A stretch of DNA of 32,457 bases, taken from positions 1-32,457 of the forward strand of contig JAHDOV010000038.1 in assembly GCA_018434685.1 (NCBI GenBank). Reading direction: 5' to 3'. This DNA is from Deltaproteobacteria bacterium (GTDB lineage: Bacteria > Desulfobacterota > Desulfomonilia > UBA1062). Both the position numbers and the translations under genes were made by a program. A model generated the notes under the pieces. The model had not been told where the DNA came from and searched no databases. It saw only the letters and a program-made list of their open reading frames with translations. This document shows positions 25,914 to 32,457 of this stretch, piece by piece. The stretch's first letter is position 1. The number at the start of each line of letters is the position of its first letter.

Positions 25914-28900
25914 TCAGCTCAAAGACAACAAATACGACCGCAGATTGGCCTTTTCCTTCTTCAATCCGAGCTTGTCCCTGATATTGTTTCGGTGGAACTC
26001 GATCGCCCGCTTCGAGATATTCAACAGATCTGCAATCTCCTTGGTCGATTTTCCCTCCCGCACGAGATTGGCCACCTGGATCTCGGTCGGGGTGAGGTTC
26101 ACGTATTGTGATGAGAGTTTCTGCAGGAATGGCGAGATGATGTCATTGAGGTTGGATTCGAGAATCGACACATAGAGCATCTGTTTGGTATCGAGTTCGC
26201 CCTGCTTCAATTTTTCAAGATAGGGCAGGGCGAGTTCCCTGATGTTGGAGAGCACCTTTTCCTCGAGCTCGTTCTTATCCTGCTCTCCCCGTTTCAAAAG
26301 GACCTTGAGCGCGGTATTTGCCTCCTCGAGGTTCAACGACTTGATCTTCAGCTCCTCTTCTTTCTGCAGCAGAGATTCCTGGGCTGCCTTGCGCTCCTCC
26401 ACCTCTTTTTTCAGCCGGATATTTGCCCGCACCAGCTCTTCTGTCCGGTCCTCGACGCGCTGCTCGAGGCTTTCGTATGCCCGCTGCAGTTTCTGATCGG
26501 TGAGTTTGCGTTCAGTGATGTCCACGAAAGAACACATCAGGCAGATCGGCCTGCCGTCATCGTTAGTCACCATGTTTGCCGAGAGTTGGACAGCGATCGG
26601 CGTGCCGTTTTTCTTCGTGGCAATGATCTCGCCGAACCAGTTTCCTTTTTTGTAGACCATCTCCAGGATGTTCAGGGCATCTTCCTCGGATTGGGCAAAG
26701 GAGAGCGCGGATTTGCCGAGCACCTCGGACTCGTGTTTCCCTCCCCACAGGCGGAGAAAGGCCTCGTTCACATAGGTGATGTTTCCCTCCAGGTCGCCGA
26801 TGGCAATGCCGTTGATCGACGAGGCAATGGCACTGTCTTTTACCCGGAGTTCTTCTTCCATATCTTTCCTGTCCGTTATATCGACAAATGAGTCCATCAT
26901 GCAGATGGGTTCGCCCTTTTCATTCTTCACGAGGCTTGCCGAGAGGTGGAGTGTAATGGGGGTGCCGTCTTTCCGGAAACCCGATACCTCACCTGACCAA
27001 CTCCCTTTTTCGAGGATTGCCTGGTAGATGGCAAGTGCCTCTTCTTCGGATTGTGCAAGCTCGAGAGCCGATCTCCCGAGCACCTCCAAAGGGTCATGAG
27101 CCCCCCACATCGTGAGGGCGGCCTCGTTCACATAGGTGATATTCCCGGCGAGGTCGGCGATGCCGATGCCCTGGACTGAAGAGGCGATGGCATAATCCTT
27201 GATGCGGAGTTCCTCTTCCATGCGCTTGCGGTCGGTGATGTCGACAAAGGAATCCATCATGCAGATTGGCTCGCCCTTTTCATTTTTTACGAGACTTGCC
27301 GAGAGGTGGACCGTAATGAGCGAACCGTCTTTTCTCCTGCCGGTGATCTCTCCAGACCAGCCGCCTTTTTCAATGACCTCGGCATATACCCTGATTGCCA
27401 CTTCTTCTGACTGTGCCAGCTCGAGGGCGGATTTCCCGAGCATTTCAGAGGCGTCTTCAGCGCCCCACATCCTGAGGGCGGCCTTGTTCACATAGGTGAT
27501 ATTGCCGGCGAGGTCGGCGATGCCGATGCCCTGAACAGAGGAGGCAATGGCAAAATCCTTGATCTGGAGTTCTTCCTCCATGCGTTTGCGCTCGGTGATG
27601 TCGACAAAGGAATCCATTATGCAGATGGGCTTGCCCTGTTCATTTTTCACCATGCTGGCAGAGAGCAGCACGGTAACCGGAGAACCGTCTTTCCGAAAGC
27701 CCGAGACCTCGCCTGACCAGCTTCCCTTGTCCAGAATGGCCTGGTATATCTCCAGGGCCTCTTCCTCCGACTGTGCCAGATCGAGGGAGGATCTTCCGAG
27801 CACTTCAGAGGCATCTTCATCGCCCCACATCTTGAGTGCCGCGTCGTTTACATAGATGATATTTCCCTCGAGATCCCCAATGCCGATGCCGTCGATGGAG
27901 GCAGCTATGGCACTGTCTTTAATCCGCAGCTCGTTCTCCATATGCTTGCGCTCGGTGATGTCTACAAACGAACACATGATACATATGGGTTCACCCTTCT
28001 CGTTCTTCACCAGGTTTGCCGAGAGCAGGACCGTAAAGACTGATCCGTCCTTTCTCTTGCCCGATATCTCCCCGGACCAGCTTCCCTTGGCGAGGATTAT
28101 CTGTATGATCTCAAGGGCCTGCTGTTCTGACTGAGCAAACAGTGCAGCTGACTCACCGAGAACCTCAGATGGGTCATCGCTTCCCCAGAGCTTAAGCACC
28201 GCATCGTTTATATAGGTTATTCTGCCATCGAGATCTGCTATGACGATGCCGTTCATGGAGGACGATATGGCAAAATCCTTGATCCTGAGCTCTTCCTCCA
28301 TGCGCTTACGCTCGGTGATATCGACGAAGGAGTCCATGGTGCAGATTGGCTCACCCCGGTCGTTCTTCACCACGTTCGCCGAAAGGAGAACGGTTATGGC
28401 AGAGCCGTCCTTCCTCTTTCCGGTCACCTCGCCGGACCATTTGCCGTTTTCGAAGAATTCATGAAAGATCTTCAGTGCCTCTTCTTCAGAGCGGGCGAAC
28501 TCCAGGGCAGACTTTCCGAGCACATCCGAGGCATCTGCGGCGCCCCACATCCTGAGCGCAGCATCGTTCACATAAATGATATTTCCTTCGAGATCGCCGA
28601 TGCCGATGCCATATATGGCAGAGGCAATGGCGCTGTCTTTTACGCGGAGTTCCTCTTCCATACGCTTGCGATGGGTAATATCCACGAAAGAACACATCAG
28701 GCAGATGGGTTTGTTTTTCTCATTGCGGACCAGGCTTGCAGAGAGGAGCACGGTAATGGCAGAGCCATCTTTTTTCCTGCCGGTGATTTCTCCTGCCCAT
28801 TCTCCTTTTTTCAGGACTGTGTCCATGATCTCGATGGCTTCTTTCTCTGACTCGGCAAAGACCGTGGCGGGATTTCCAAGGATCTCTTTTGGATCATCGC

Positions 28901-29087
28901 TTCCCCACATGGCAAGCGCTGCCTTGTTCACATAGGTTACAATGCCGTTGAGGTCACCGATAGCAATGCCGTTTAGGGACGATGCGATTGCGAAATCCTT
29001 GATGCGAAGTTCTTCTTCAATCTGTTTAAGCTCGGTAATCTGATCCTTCAGCGGTTTTGACTCTTTAGTTAGCTTCTTTCCCGGCAC
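25914..29087 (-). CDS. Seven-PAS, LuxR-type soluble sensor-regulator
   Basis: The ~1,060-aa cytoplasmic protein has no transmembrane segment and no histidine-kinase domain. Counting from ATG 29096, seven PAS/PAC units start at residues 27, 147, 267, 387, 507, 627 and 747, each exactly 120 aa (360 nt). Each has EEL-(R/Q)-(I/V)-KD at its start, then G-I-(A/G/V)-I-(G/A)-DL, TYVN/IYVN, W-(S/A/F)-GE and SFVDIT near the end. A coiled coil (about 867-945) and helical linker lead to a GerE/LuxR helix-turn-helix (1001-1060: LTPTEIQVANLVREGKSTKE...ISKRAIEFHRNNI). The Shine-Dalgarno AAGGAGG (29097-29103) abuts ATG 29096 but lies 9 nt before in-frame GTG 29087, which I prefer. It probably integrates ligand or redox signals to control transcription. 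Confidence 0.93.
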   Translation of the reverse strand: MPGKKLTKESKPLKDQITELKQIEEELRIKDFAIASSLNGIAIGDLNGIVTYVNKAALAMWGSDDPKEILGNPATVFAESEKEAIEIMDTVLKKGEWAGEITGRKKDGSAITVLLSASLVRNEKNKPICLMCSFVDITHRKRMEEELRVKDSAIASAIYGIGIGDLEGNIIYVNDAALRMWGAADASDVLGKSALEFARSEEEALKIFHEFFENGKWSGEVTGKRKDGSAITVLLSANVVKNDRGEPICTMDSFVDITERKRMEEELRIKDFAISSSMNGIVIADLDGRITYINDAVLKLWGSDDPSEVLGESAALFAQSEQQALEIIQIILAKGSWSGEISGKRKDGSVFTVLLSANLVKNEKGEPICIMCSFVDITERKHMENELRIKDSAIAASIDGIGIGDLEGNIIYVNDAALKMWGDEDASEVLGRSSLDLAQSEEEALEIYQAILDKGSWSGEVSGFRKDGSPVTVLLSASMVKNEQGKPICIMDSFVDITERKRMEEELQIKDFAIASSVQGIGIADLAGNITYVNKAALRMWGAEDASEMLGKSALELAQSEEVAIRVYAEVIEKGGWSGEITGRRKDGSLITVHLSASLVKNEKGEPICMMDSFVDITDRKRMEEELRIKDYAIASSVQGIGIADLAGNITYVNEAALTMWGAHDPLEVLGRSALELAQSEEEALAIYQAILEKGSWSGEVSGFRKDGTPITLHLSASLVKNEKGEPICMMDSFVDITDRKDMEEELRVKDSAIASSINGIAIGDLEGNITYVNEAFLRLWGGKHESEVLGKSALSFAQSEEDALNILEMVYKKGNWFGEIIATKKNGTPIAVQLSANMVTNDDGRPICLMCSFVDITERKLTDQKLQRAYESLEQRVEDRTEELVRANIRLKKEVEERKAAQESLLQKEEELKIKSLNLEEANTALKVLLKRGEQDKNELEEKVLSNIRELALPYLEKLKQGELDTKQMLYVSILESNLNDIISPFLQKLSSQYVNLTPTEIQVANLVREGKSTKEIADLLNISKRAIEFHRNNIRDKLGLKKEKANLRSYLLSLS

Positions 29088-29138
29088 CGGCCACATCCTC
29101 CTTGAATAGCTAATGTATTAATAAAGCCATACGGCTTG

Positions 29139-29168
29139 TATAGGCTGTAGGCTATAGGCTGAAGGCTG
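29139..29168. repeat. Heptamer tandem repeat
   Basis: Four near-identical 7-bp units, TAGGCTG, TAGGCTA, TAGGCTG and AAGGCTG, run directly up to the stop codon of the S23-type gene remnant. They are related to the CTGTAGG half of the 15-bp unit found upstream of both gene copies. Confidence 0.6.
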
Positions 29169-29296
29169 TTAGTTCTTGCGCATTGATCGAAGCAGCGCAC
29201 CCAGAACCTTCTCTGTCTCCACGATTCTTGATTCGCAGCCGGAAATATTGCGGTCATCAGCCAGTTCAAACACCCTGAGATTGTATGATCCCGCAT
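29169..29296 (-). pseudogene. Deleted copy of the adjacent S23-type four-helix-bundle gene
   Basis: The first ~40 bp and last ~85 bp match the intact gene at 29414-29770, but the middle is missing. The junction (TCATCA at 29254-29259) corresponds to two TCATCA copies in the intact gene (29499-29504 and 29727-29732), 228 bp apart. A further 1-bp loss near the start shifts the frame. Together these give 229 bp, which is exactly the difference between 357 and 128 bp. It ends at the same codon position (GCGCAAGAACTAA). The gene is non-functional. Confidence 0.85.
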
Positions 29297-29310
29297 CCCC
29301 TCCCCTTCAG

Positions 29311-29401
29311 CCTAAATCCCTACAGTCTAAATCCCTACAGTCTAAATCCCTACAGTCTAAATCCCTACAGTCTAAATCCCTACAGTCTAATTTCCCTGCA
29401 G
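29311..29401. repeat. 15-bp tandem repeat array
   Basis: Five consecutive 15-bp units, the last four identical TCTAAATCCCTACAG and the first differing by one base, are followed by a degenerate sixth of 16 bp. On the minus strand it reads CTGTAGGGATTTAGA and runs into the G-rich start region of the gene remnant (about 14 bp away). A degenerate version precedes the intact gene at 29776-29846. The units are contiguous, with no unique spacers, so this is not a CRISPR array. Confidence 0.9.
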
Positions 29402-29413
29402 CCTAAAGTTCTG

Positions 29414-29770
29414 TTAGTTTTTGCGCATTGATCGAAGCAGTGCGCCTAAAACCTTCTCTGTCTCCAGAATCTTTGATTCACAGCCGGATATGTCATGGTC
29501 ATCAAAATACCCCAGGCGCTTTGACAGGCCAACTTGATAATGCAACTCCCTTAAGGAACCGAATGCTATTTCAAGAAAACGTAGATGCTCGGCCTGGCTC
29601 TCACGTGCACATCCCTCAACGATGTTTGATGGAACTGAAACAGCCGCTCTTCTCATTTGGGAACTCAACCCATATATTTCCTCCTTGGGGAATTCCCTGG
29701 TTGCCTGATAGATCAGAAGCACCACTTCATCAGCCAGTTCAAATGCCCTGAGTTTCGTGTGATCACGCAT
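29414..29770 (-). CDS. S23/four-helix-bundle protein (23S rRNA intervening-sequence type)
   Basis: The 118-aa product matches the small four-helix-bundle family first found encoded in 23S rRNA intervening sequences. Signatures are KLRAFELADEVV near the N-terminus, REFPKEEIYGLSSQMRRAA, then SVPSNIVEGCARES and a C-terminal helix ending LLRSMRKN. It is free-standing here, not inside an rRNA gene. Family function is not settled; relatives form pentameric helical bundles and include the Avd accessory protein of diversity-generating retroelements, but no reverse transcriptase or variable repeat is seen here. G-rich AGGTGGGGG abuts the ATG. A deleted tandem copy lies just downstream on the same strand. 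Confidence 0.9.
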   Translation of the reverse strand: MRDHTKLRAFELADEVVLLIYQATREFPKEEIYGLSSQMRRAAVSVPSNIVEGCARESQAEHLRFLEIAFGSLRELHYQVGLSKRLGYFDDHDISGCESKILETEKVLGALLRSMRKN

Positions 29771-29775
29771 CCCCC

Positions 29776-29846
29776 ACCTACATTCTAAAAGTCTTCATCC
29801 TAAAAGCCTACAGTCTAAACACCTACAGTCTAAATGCTTACAGCCT
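29776..29846. repeat. Degenerate 15-bp repeat array upstream of S23-type gene
   Basis: On the minus strand successive units read CTGTAAGCATTTAGA, CTGTAGGTGTTTAGA, CTGTAGGCTTTTAGG and ATGAAGACTTTTAGA, then ATGTAGGTGGGGG directly before the start codon. These are diverged forms of the 15-bp unit at 29311-29401, in the same place relative to the gene. Confidence 0.75.
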
Positions 29847-30330
29847 GTTCATTATACCTGTCGTATTAATAATAGGTAAACTTCAATGTTGCAGTCGATA
29901 AGAATTTATTATCAAGAATCAATCAGGATAGTCCGCAGTCACAATCAGTATAAATACCTGTCCGCGATATGACATGGAGTGGTTTGTAGGTCATGGTGTT
30001 GCCAAAGGCAACTCCTTGACAGCGACGCGATCATGCCCTTCCGATATTCGCAGGCAGCTCGCTTCGCTCCCAGCCAGTCCTACATGTATTGCAATTGTTA
30101 CCCATGTTTTGAGCTAAAACTGTTATCGATGTCCTAACCTGTTCAAGGTTTTCATCTCAAACCTTATACCTTATACCTTATACCCTTAATCTTCTTCACC
30201 TAGTGCCCAGTGCCTCCAGATCACTTCTGCCTGAGATCTTGAGACAAAGGTCTTGATCTGCCTGGCTTCTCGATCATTCCTGCGTTAAAAACTTCTGCCT
30301 GGGATCTCGAACAACCTTGAATTCTCACAA
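29847..30330. other. Intergenic repeat modules
   Basis: No gene is supported. Modules present are a TGTAGG...CCTACA-bounded element at 29985-30084 containing the hairpin-prone GCTCGCTTCGCTCCCAGC, ACCTTAT-type heptamer repeats at 30161-30186, the CACCTAGTGCCCAG module at 30191-30223, and fragments of the 120-bp mosaic repeat at about 30224-30303. Confidence 0.6.
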
Positions 30331-31359
30331 TCAAAACTCCATCACAAGCCCGATCATAACAGACGACACGCATACATTGTTGAAGACCCCTATTTCCAAA
30401 GGGTCCTCATAACTCCACGTAGAGAGATCAGAGCCCTCATACCAGGCAGGATTGGCTGTCTTATACGATATCTCAAGGATAGGATCAAACTGCTGCAGAT
30501 TATAGAACCCGGTATTGAATTCTGCAACAAGCCTGAAATTGTTCTTCAGAGGAATTTCAACGCCGGCCAGGAAGTTGAGGAGCGTGCCGGTGACCACTTG
30601 AGATTTATCAAGATCGATCCTGTATTCCGGTCCTTCGAAGGATTCTTCCTTAATGGCCCTGCTCTTGACCTCGCGCCGGGCAATGCAGAACCCCAACCCC
30701 CCGCCGACATAGGGGTTTACCTTCTCCTCCTTATGAATCCAGTATTTTGCATTGAGGGTTATGGGGAGAAGAAACAGGGTGGTTTCGATATCGATGCTCT
30801 GGAGAGATTCAGCACTGGTAATGAGTGCTTCACCGCCTCCGAAATAGCTCTGGCCGAGATTTACATCAGGCAAATCTTCCGCTGTTATTACTTCTCCCTC
30901 ATCCGGAACAAATCCGGGAAAATACTCCTCTGCCGCAGCCTGGATGGATTCCCTGTCGCCGCCTGTCCGCCACTTTCCCTTCAGCATGATAAGATCAATA
31001 GCAACTGTCACAGAGATGTTTTCTTTCATTCTCTTTTCCAACCCGAGCGAGACTATGGCACCATAGTCCAGAAACTCCCTGAACTCCTTATCATAGTTTG
31101 CCATTGAAGCCCCTGCTTTAATGAAGTTCGTCAGATCCTTTTTCTGAACAGTTGGCTCTGTTTGGGGGATTGTTAATGGTGTGGGCTCATTTTGGGGAGG
31201 GATAGGGGTGGTTTCTGAGTGGTATTGACCAAGATTGTATTGAGTCACTCCTATAACAGCATCAGATGCCGGCTTCTGTGGAGTTGTTTCCTGTTGAGCA
31301 CAAATATCCTGGGTGAAGATTAATAAGAAAGCTATCGACAAGAGAATAACTTTTTTCAT
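30331..31359 (-). CDS. Outer-membrane beta-barrel protein, unknown function
   Basis: The 342-aa product has a Sec signal peptide (MKKVILLSIAFLLIFTQ..., cleavage near CAQ-QET). A Pro/Thr-rich linker (TPIPPQNEPTPLTIPQTEPT, about residues 50-70) follows. From about residue 75 the sequence alternates in barrel fashion, with NPYVGGGLGFCIARREVKS in the middle and LLNFLAGVEIPLKNNFRLVA later; both are typical of small OmpA-like/OmpW-like barrels. It ends MIGLVMEF, with the C-terminal Phe of a barrel. The start is ATG 31359, with AGGAGCGGGGA upstream. I cannot assign a specific family or ligand. It is monocistronic as far as can be seen. Confidence 0.75.
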   Translation of the reverse strand: MKKVILLSIAFLLIFTQDICAQQETTPQKPASDAVIGVTQYNLGQYHSETTPIPPQNEPTPLTIPQTEPTVQKKDLTNFIKAGASMANYDKEFREFLDYGAIVSLGLEKRMKENISVTVAIDLIMLKGKWRTGGDRESIQAAAEEYFPGFVPDEGEVITAEDLPDVNLGQSYFGGGEALITSAESLQSIDIETTLFLLPITLNAKYWIHKEEKVNPYVGGGLGFCIARREVKSRAIKEESFEGPEYRIDLDKSQVVTGTLLNFLAGVEIPLKNNFRLVAEFNTGFYNLQQFDPILEISYKTANPAWYEGSDLSTWSYEDPLEIGVFNNVCVSSVMIGLVMEF

Positions 31360-31875
31360 TCCCCGCTCCTATACGTGGTCACTTCATAATAATAAAATAA
31401 GTGGTACAAGCTTTAAAACCACACTCCCAATGGGCTAACTGCAATACCTGTTGTTTTAACTAAGCCGTCATTCCCGCGCAGGTGGGAATCTATTGATTCA
31501 AAGATTCAAAAGAGTTCAACGTCCCAACATCATCAGGCGGCAATCTAAGAGCAATTCTGCAACTGCCCCCCCATATAATCTATTATAAAACCCAGCACTG
31601 AGACACCTGCAAAAATTATTCCCTGAATTGTAGAATCCAACTCATTGATTTCATGTTTTTAATAAATGGTTCAAGGGCAGGAGAAGGCCAAAATGAAAAC
31701 TCTTTCCTTTTTATGGGTAAAAACTTGCCTACAGCGACGGCTTAAGCTCCGAGATACAGGGTAGCGATTGAGTTACTGAACAGGTGTATGGTCTCATCCC
31801 TGATGGCACTAAGTGTTTTTCCTGATGATGAAGCAGCTAATAGAACAGGATTCTCAGTTTGATAAGCGTTATACC

Positions 31876-31901
31876 CTGTAGGAGCGGCTTAAACCGCGAC
31901 C
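31876..31901. repeat. Single-arm REP sequence
   Basis: CTGTAGGAGCGGCTTAAACC continuing GCGACC is a degenerate left arm of the REP family; the right arm is absent. Confidence 0.75.
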
Positions 31902-32074
31902 TGGGTAAGGGCGGTTCAAGGTTTAAGTTTTCACCTCAAACCTTATACCTTATACCCTTCTTCATTTTCTTCACCTAGCGCCTGATGCCTAGAACCCAGT
32001 GCCTCTAGATCACCTGCCAGGCAACTCGCTTCGCTCCCAGCCTGGCCTACAACTTGGGACTGCGTATCGCCAAA

Positions 32075-32194
32075 CTTCTGCCTTGGATCTAGAGCTTCGG
32101 TGTTTTCCTGCCTGGATTCTTGAGCTTCTCTGCTCATTCTGCCTGGGTTCGTGTTCCCAAAATCTTGCACTGCCTTACATCCCGAACACACCTG
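32075..32194. repeat. 120-bp mosaic repeat, copy 2
   Basis: Begins CTTCTGCCTTGGATCTAGAG and ends CACCTG. It aligns gap-free to 25784-25903 at about 85% identity by hand count. Confidence 0.75.
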
Positions 32195-32336
32195 ATCACG
32201 CTTATCCCTTACACCCTGATCATCGTTCAATTTCCCTCTTTCTCGATATGCAGCATAAAACGAAATTTCATCTGGTTCATTCCACATCTTTATGGTAGAA
32301 ATAAGGCATATATTATGATTATGAGGGGAAGGGAAG

Positions 32337-32457
32337 GTGGCTGGTACATTGCGAAGACTCCTGTTTTTTTTATTATGCAGTTGTTTCATCAGCGGGTGCA
32401 GCGAAAGCTCCAGCAGCAGCTCGGCAGGCGAGGCACCTCTTTTTCCAACACAGGAAA
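32337..32457 (+). CDS. Lipoprotein, N-terminal 40 codons, truncated by window edge
   Basis: An open frame starts at GTG 32337 (translated MAGTLRRLLFFLLCSCFISG, then C) and runs off the right edge. Two Arg residues, a hydrophobic core and a lipobox ISGC followed by SESSSSSSAGE are a textbook lipoprotein signal and Ser-rich tether. This closely resembles the CSGSSS start of the 17606 lipoprotein. AGGGGA (32324-32329) lies 7 nt before the GTG, and the frame is closed upstream by TGA at 32322. The rest of the protein is outside the window, so its function cannot be stated. Confidence 0.6.
   Translation, partial: MAGTLRRLLFFLLCSCFISGCSESSSSSSAGEAPLFPTQE

Follow-up and report, generated by a model that had tools for sequence, protein, structure and literature searches.

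Heptad-armed S23 units as a probable free-standing, mobile form of the 23S rRNA intervening sequence

An S23 gene and a broken S23 copy beside it, found in 32,457 nucleotides of Deltaproteobacteria contig JAHDOV010000038.1 (this whole stretch is called the window below), are most probably two units of a free-standing, mobile form of the intervening sequence (IVS) of 23S rRNA, a form with hypervariable heptad arms. What we observed of it comprises its anatomy, a heptad period, arms that are complementary and change together, presence and absence at fixed sites, a position at stop codons, an orientation bias and selection on the protein. A first-pass annotation, made from the letters of the window, had suspected a repeat-flanked mobile module, and this is strongly supported by empty sites, copies at multiple sites and dispersed arms.

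Results

The S23 gene, its remnant and their arms

The intact gene of the window encodes 118 amino acids (Table 1) and matches Pfam 23S_rRNA_IVP with an E value of 3.9e-32. Its place in the S23 family is given by PF05635 (111.1 bits, cut-off 33.8) and TIGR02436 (109.3 bits, cut-off 24), and its closest solved structure is 2gsc (E 8e-24). The remnant downstream retains both ends of the gene, as the first-pass annotation had stated: the 3’ ends are 84% alike over 94 nt (29166-29259 and 29411-29504) and the 5’ ends 90% alike over 29 nt (29254-29282 and 29727-29755). The 94-nt 3’ end matches at 79/94 positions at the remnant and at no more than 42/94 anywhere else in the window, so the likeness is not due to chance. 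The deletion that had been read from the letters, 228 bp by microhomology plus one base, is exact. TCATCA occurs at 29254, 29499 and 29727; the last two are 228 apart (29727-29499), and the remnant has lost exactly what lies between them, leaving the TCATCA at 29254 as its junction. The further missing base is near the gene start (CACACGAAACTC versus CATACAATCTC).

Table 1. Features of the S23 locus in the window
Feature	Position	Strand	Evidence
Intergenic region with the element, 1234 bp; three relatives with the same gene pair are S23-free	29097..30330	no strand	
Entire locus with its heptad arms (two leader arrays, the S23 gene and its remnant, one inverted arm)	29132..29850	-	
3’ arm: repeats inverted relative to the leaders	29137..29167	+	pairs I2, I3
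S23 remnant, frameshifted: 228 bp deleted between TGATGA direct repeats and 1 base lost	29169..29296	-	
5’ arm of second unit: 15-bp repeat x6.9	29303..29407	-	
Intact S23 / 23S_rRNA_IVP gene, 118 aa	29414..29770	-	profile match
5’ arm of intact unit: 15-bp (7+8) repeat x4.5, ending just before ATG	29777..29843	-	TRF

Both copies carry the 15-bp leader that had been ascribed to them, and the order along the S23 gene is array, S23, array, remnant, inverted array. The ORF is bordered by inverted repeats, a trait of rRNA IVSs, in the form of pairs I2 (29137-29153 with 29805-29821) and I3 (29150-29165 with 29304-29319); TRF also finds period 7 (TAGGCTG) in the 3’ arm. Because the repeats beyond the remnant, which the first-pass annotation had not reported, run inverted, the unit reads as leader, S23, inverted leader. 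Another trait of an rRNA IVS, location inside a 16S or 23S rRNA gene, does not hold for this element, whose neighbors are protein-coding ORFs, and an Rfam search of 28900-32457 returned nothing at E<=1. The RNA fold of the window element was no better than that of shuffled sequences (z -1.12, 3/20 as good).

The spacer that holds the element also contains other dispersed repeats. ACCTTAT heptad runs at 30161-30184 and 31940-31956 belong to a pair of related dispersed sequences, which represent another heptad-bearing repeat family of the genome, and at 26760-28772 a 360-bp repeat is present 5.6 times within one gene, which we take to be a PAS-domain gene.

The pair had been called a tandem duplication. 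A second, broken copy is indeed there, but the duplication itself is unproved: a recent local duplication is not demonstrated, because the two copies are as distant from each other (73/88 bases the same) as from the copy of another genus, G006 (76/88 for copy 1, 74/88 for copy 2). Nearly an even chance should be given to a history in which related elements came to lie side by side by two independent insertions, or by old recombination between arms, and this would be compatible with a mobile element. The distances just given speak for it, as does the difference in repeat detail between the two leaders; the shared orientation and leader type speak for duplication, and so does the junction, where TAACAG is joined straight to the next leader as unequal exchange predicts. 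These sequences fit an old tandem duplication as well as they fit two related insertions made separately. In the G006 copy itself (L146, contig C173), a gene-less hairpin carrying this kind of repeat stands in place of the N-terminal part of the ORF.

Repeats and S23 copies elsewhere in the genome

In the 4.29-Mb genome, a 13-mer of the leader is found at 15 places, 6 of them in the window, and a reversed-pattern control at none. One interspersed sequence bounded by leader repeats gave 17 matches, counting itself and the window, with the best of the remaining ones reaching 92-95% identity. Among the matches listed, no copy of this interspersed sequence other than the window’s was seen to hold an S23 gene. 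A second S23 element of the host genome has different repeats (TTTTAAGTTTTAGGTGTTAAGTG and its inverse) and lies at two contig ends; its ORF is without the 5’ half (L002 at the start of C40, L003 at the end of C47). The host 23S rRNA gene is absent from the assembly.

Heptad arms across loci

The main sample came from a profile search of data holding one genome per species, from which we took the best 80 of 574 relatives as named loci from many phyla, including one archaeon. A relatives’ sample held 26 usable loci plus the window, leaving out L035 and L037 (broken or fragmentary), L038 (a partial match) and the own-genome fragments L002 and L003; a plasmid sample held 12 loci fetched of 22 matching records. 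For the arm test, the upstream 150 bases were aligned with the reverse complement of the downstream 150 bases. This was done on 77 of the 80 loci, L052, L056 and L125 being dropped for short or N-filled flanks.

The median score was 17 at these 77 S23 loci (from the best 80 of 574), as against 9 in both controls, which were 319 genes other than S23 and 308 mismatched S23 pairs. The mismatched-pair maximum of 15 was exceeded by 43 of the 77 loci and the 99th percentile of the other genes by 28; over a third (34, scoring <=15) had no arm complementarity above control. Among the relatives plus window, 15/27 exceeded the 99th percentile of the mismatched control. Self-match at lag 7 beside S23 was 0.404 upstream and 0.379 downstream, with echoes at 14 and 21, compared with 0.266 in a coding control; a second method gave 0.43 and 0.44 in S23 flanks versus 0.318 in the other intergenic regions of the same loci. 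The mild excess in these other regions is what dispersed gene-less arrays would give.

On plasmids, heptad arrays were visible by eye beside the gene in 12/12 copies, weakly in L224 and with the downstream array in the same sense in L222. The RNA of L223 folds to close with a long stem (z -8.8). Plasmid matches came from 22 of 72,556 records, 20 of them cyanobacterial, with Gemmatirosa and Azospirillum the only others; none of 50,697 phage records matched. A distant S23 subgroup (L243-L247, L254, L255) has no visible heptad arms. Copy number ran from 1 to 16 across 18 named genomes, and the family was present in 0/14 control genomes. The arms of the one Clostridia genome with 16 copies vary from copy to copy.

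Position and orientation of the insertions

Neighboring genes were called with a codon-trained gene caller, a cruder ORF-based count having mis-called high-GC loci; that count put both neighbors co-directional in 51/72. Both neighbors were protein-coding and within 400 bp at 65/80 loci (best 80 of 574), and none of 15 other loci scanned matched an rRNA family in Rfam. The statement that S23-type genes are mostly known inside 23S rRNA therefore does not describe this sample. The neighbors were in tandem in 58 of the 65, with S23 in sense in 55 of these 58; control adjacent gene pairs were tandem in 82% of 310. Among plasmid copies (L220 and L221 being the same site), 9/12 were in sense with both neighbors and 3/12 antisense to both, so sense transcription is not obligatory.

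The upstream gene’s stop codon marks the start of the array. With that stop as anchor, which could be set at 63/80 loci, the lag-7 match was 0.23-0.30 deep within the upstream ORF, climbed to 0.33 and 0.41 over the final twelve bases and reached 0.53-0.57 from the stop on; the stop triplet itself recurs at +7 in 15/63 and at +14 in 15/63, other lags giving 0-5. The window element, about 490 bp from the upstream stop, is an exception to this placement.

Some insertion sites are within operons. In Xanthomonas and Luteimonas the unit lies between two genes, whose ends were recognized by protein motifs and which we take to be accB and accC; the S23 protein of this site matches 2gsc (XCC0516, a Xanthomonas homologue) with an E value of 6.4e-40. 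Another such site is cas10|cmr3 in Picosynechococcus. CRISPR-operon units lie between cas10 and cmr3 (L231 1417-1846) and between cas6 and cas4 (L222 1285-1966). The S23 family is named among CRISPR-associated proteins in a figure legend of PMC10910872, and such units may explain the association of ‘23S rRNA IVP’ with CRISPR in that legend.

Filled, empty and gene-less sites

A comparison with genomes lacking the insertion had been called for: the gene pair flanking the window element is adjacent and S23-free in three relatives (G012, G005 and G002), with diverged flanks. Filled and empty sites with matching flanks, by which a mobile element is recognized, occur on plasmids; those at the window site have diverged.

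The element of a Trichormus plasmid has S23-free counterparts on plasmids of Nostoc linckia and N. carneum, with flanks 98% and 97% identical. These empty sites read ...AAAAAGTAA TTAACAAAT(A/T)A(A/T)T ATG, and the filled site reads AAAAAGTAA, the whole unit, then TAATTAACAAATAAAT ATG. A gene-less hairpin is at this site in Brasilonema and a 5’ remnant in Nostoc C052, so that one plasmid site shows empty, full, gene-less hairpin and remnant states. Four further plasmid sites have S23-free counterparts. At the L226 site, a further plasmid (L274) is S23-free, its spacer being longer and containing this kind of repeat. The elements L220, L227 and L230, whose proteins are 79-83% alike, have the same arms and lie at different places on different plasmids. 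GTAA, a possible target-site duplication, stands on both sides of the element at one site (L220 versus L265), the other sites being too diverged to compare.

At the accB|accC site, 31 of 35 Xanthomonas genomes have the S23 unit and 4 the hairpin only. We had considered these 4 as empty sites and rejected them as such: the arms remain, and they are gene-less hairpins.

Evolution of the arms and selection on the protein

Both arms at the Xanthomonas accB|accC site change sequence together. Their repeat is GGGAATC, GGGATTC or GGGACCC according to the Xanthomonas group, and GTGATTG in Luteimonas. Mean arm complementarity within a locus was 25.6, 18.5, 27.2 and 28.0 for the groups (15, 15, 4 and 1 loci; one of 36 located loci matched none of the group rules and was left out here), and between groups 7.5-20.0. 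The highest between-group scores came from the two groups with similar repeats, and the own-arm score of Xanthomonas group B, 18.5, is below its cross score with Luteimonas, 20.0. This co-change and the copy-to-copy differences in Clostridia indicate arms with no fixed sequence that nevertheless tend to retain period and mutual complementarity.

Arm and protein similarity were compared at 133 loci (8778 pairs) after removal of listed armless or duplicate loci. Over all 8778 pairs there was no relation (Spearman 0.01); the link appears only above about 55-65% protein identity, and 21/29 pairs with >=65% identity share arms. The window shares arms (score 38) with a locus of a MAG whose label, Akkermansia, places it in another phylum, at 69% protein identity. 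Gene and arms thus travel together, as seen at high protein identity.

The S23 protein is under strong purifying selection, with dN/dS at 0.06-0.24 in 8/12 pairs with unsaturated dS. The window gene gives a dN/dS of 0.07 against a Brocadiaceae MAG, at a dS near saturation (1.92).

Discussion

Two other explanations must be set against a mobile element. One holds that the heptad arrays are slippage microsatellites or local regulatory repeats with no functional relation to S23. Heptamers are over-represented in bacteria, and slippage has been proposed for them (PMC4692102); the mild lag-7 excess in other intergenic regions of the same loci fits such an origin too. Slippage, however, does not turn one array into an inverted complement of the other, change both arms together at one site or give presence or absence of a whole unit, and inverted heptad pairs are not equally common at other genes (median 9 against 17). 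We consider this explanation very improbable.

It is also unlikely that the unit is a domesticated, non-mobile cassette for mRNA processing, whose arms form a transcript hairpin excised by RNase III. An rRNA IVS hairpin with an S23 ORF is cut out by RNase III (PMC4990558), and the sense bias and the long stem of the L223 fold would suit a cassette. Near-identical plasmids with and without the unit argue against it, as do occurrences of one element at unrelated sites and antisense copies, of which L223 is one. Against a mobile element it counts that no transposase or recombinase is linked to the unit, and mobility itself is read from comparisons of sites.

We know of no nuclease among S23 proteins. 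In the reading that we favor, the unit is a long hairpin made of a 7-bp repeat array, the S23 ORF and the inverted complement of the array. It inserts by the stop codon of an upstream gene, mostly within tandem gene pairs and mostly in sense, and because of this placement the ORF could ride on the host transcript. The two arms change fast yet together, differing from element to element, and gene-less hairpins are left at the same site and scattered elsewhere. An S23 oligomer, a relative of the retroelement protein Avd, may bind the arm hairpin as RNA or single-stranded DNA, and this binding may help the unit and its gene-less copies to move or persist, with a cutting or copying enzyme presumably supplied by the host to a unit that has no transposase of its own. 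In the window, the second unit in tandem has lost 228 bp of its ORF by deletion between 6-bp repeats. The sense bias, the position of the ORF inside a hairpin and the RNase III excision of rRNA IVSs all point to an element living in transcripts.

More tentatively, S23 proteins may mark out a class of mobile hairpin elements that occurs widely in bacteria and in one archaeon. Such elements would have no nuclease, recognize heptad hairpins, insert at operon stop codons and make their own arms by templated copying, each new insertion receiving a new self-complementary repeat; rRNA IVSs would then be relics of this class, and so would the orphan heptanucleotide repeats known from Xanthomonas, Nostoc, Beggiatoa and Geobacter. 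In the open-licence literature we found no description of free-standing S23 hairpin elements. An old question, with hypotheses of 1990 and 1993 (PMC4990558), asks if rRNA IVSs are what is left of a mobile element that was aided in its movement by its ORF; it becomes testable through free-standing units whose filled and empty sites occur in cyanobacteria that can be cultured. The free-standing form further connects a protein family that is common yet uncharacterized both with the heptanucleotide repeats for which several genome papers had no explanation and with insertions in operons, among them CRISPR operons.

Comparison with known systems

The unit resembles REPIN/RAYT systems. REP or REPIN sequences with a RAYT transposase comprise one coding unit flanked by inverted repeats and many gene-less hairpins per genome, and the S23 system likewise has a coding unit with inverted flanks plus many gene-less hairpins in one genome. 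It differs in that the S23 arms are heptad arrays of arbitrary sequence and S23 is a four-helix-bundle protein; no RAYT transposase was found in the window unit, whose sole encoded product is the S23 protein.

Avd of diversity-generating retroelements belongs to the same fold family as S23, and the homology of the two is stated in PMC10053308. The window gene matches the NCBIfam Avd model with an E value of 1.3e-7, below the cut-off for an Avd equivalog (31.9 bits versus 80). The solved structure of a Xanthomonas S23 homologue is a pentamer (PMC4990558).

As in the rRNA IVSs of Coxiella and Leptospira, the S23 ORF of the unit is enclosed by stem-forming inverted repeats. In the Coxiella IVS, tandem GACAGAT heptamers lie upstream of the S23 ORF and there is a terminal stem; one strain has a 176-bp deletion in the ORF, which is reported as decaying (PMC4990558). 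Unlike rRNA IVSs, the unit described here stands by itself among the protein-coding genes of chromosomes and plasmids and has arms specific to each element, and unlike the decaying Coxiella ORF its protein is under purifying selection.

The orphan heptanucleotide repeats are heptad arrays such as those found here, where the same kind of array bounds S23 genes. Published families are GGGAATC (Xanthomonas), GGGGA(C/T)T (Nostoc), TAACTGA (Beggiatoaceae) and GGGACCG (Geobacter), and a search of PMC4692102, PMC4679880 and PMC2700814 found no mention of S23. A repeat-binding protein has been suggested as the mobile element behind the TAACTGA repeats (PMC4679880). Two Xanthomonas genomes contain 183-186 GGGAATC arrays, including 70-75 inverted pairs, between aligned ORFs and near or overlapping stop codons (PMC4692102). 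The free-standing S23 element appears to account for several of these families, and in one Xanthomonas group GGGAATC, the published repeat, bounds the S23 unit between accB and accC.
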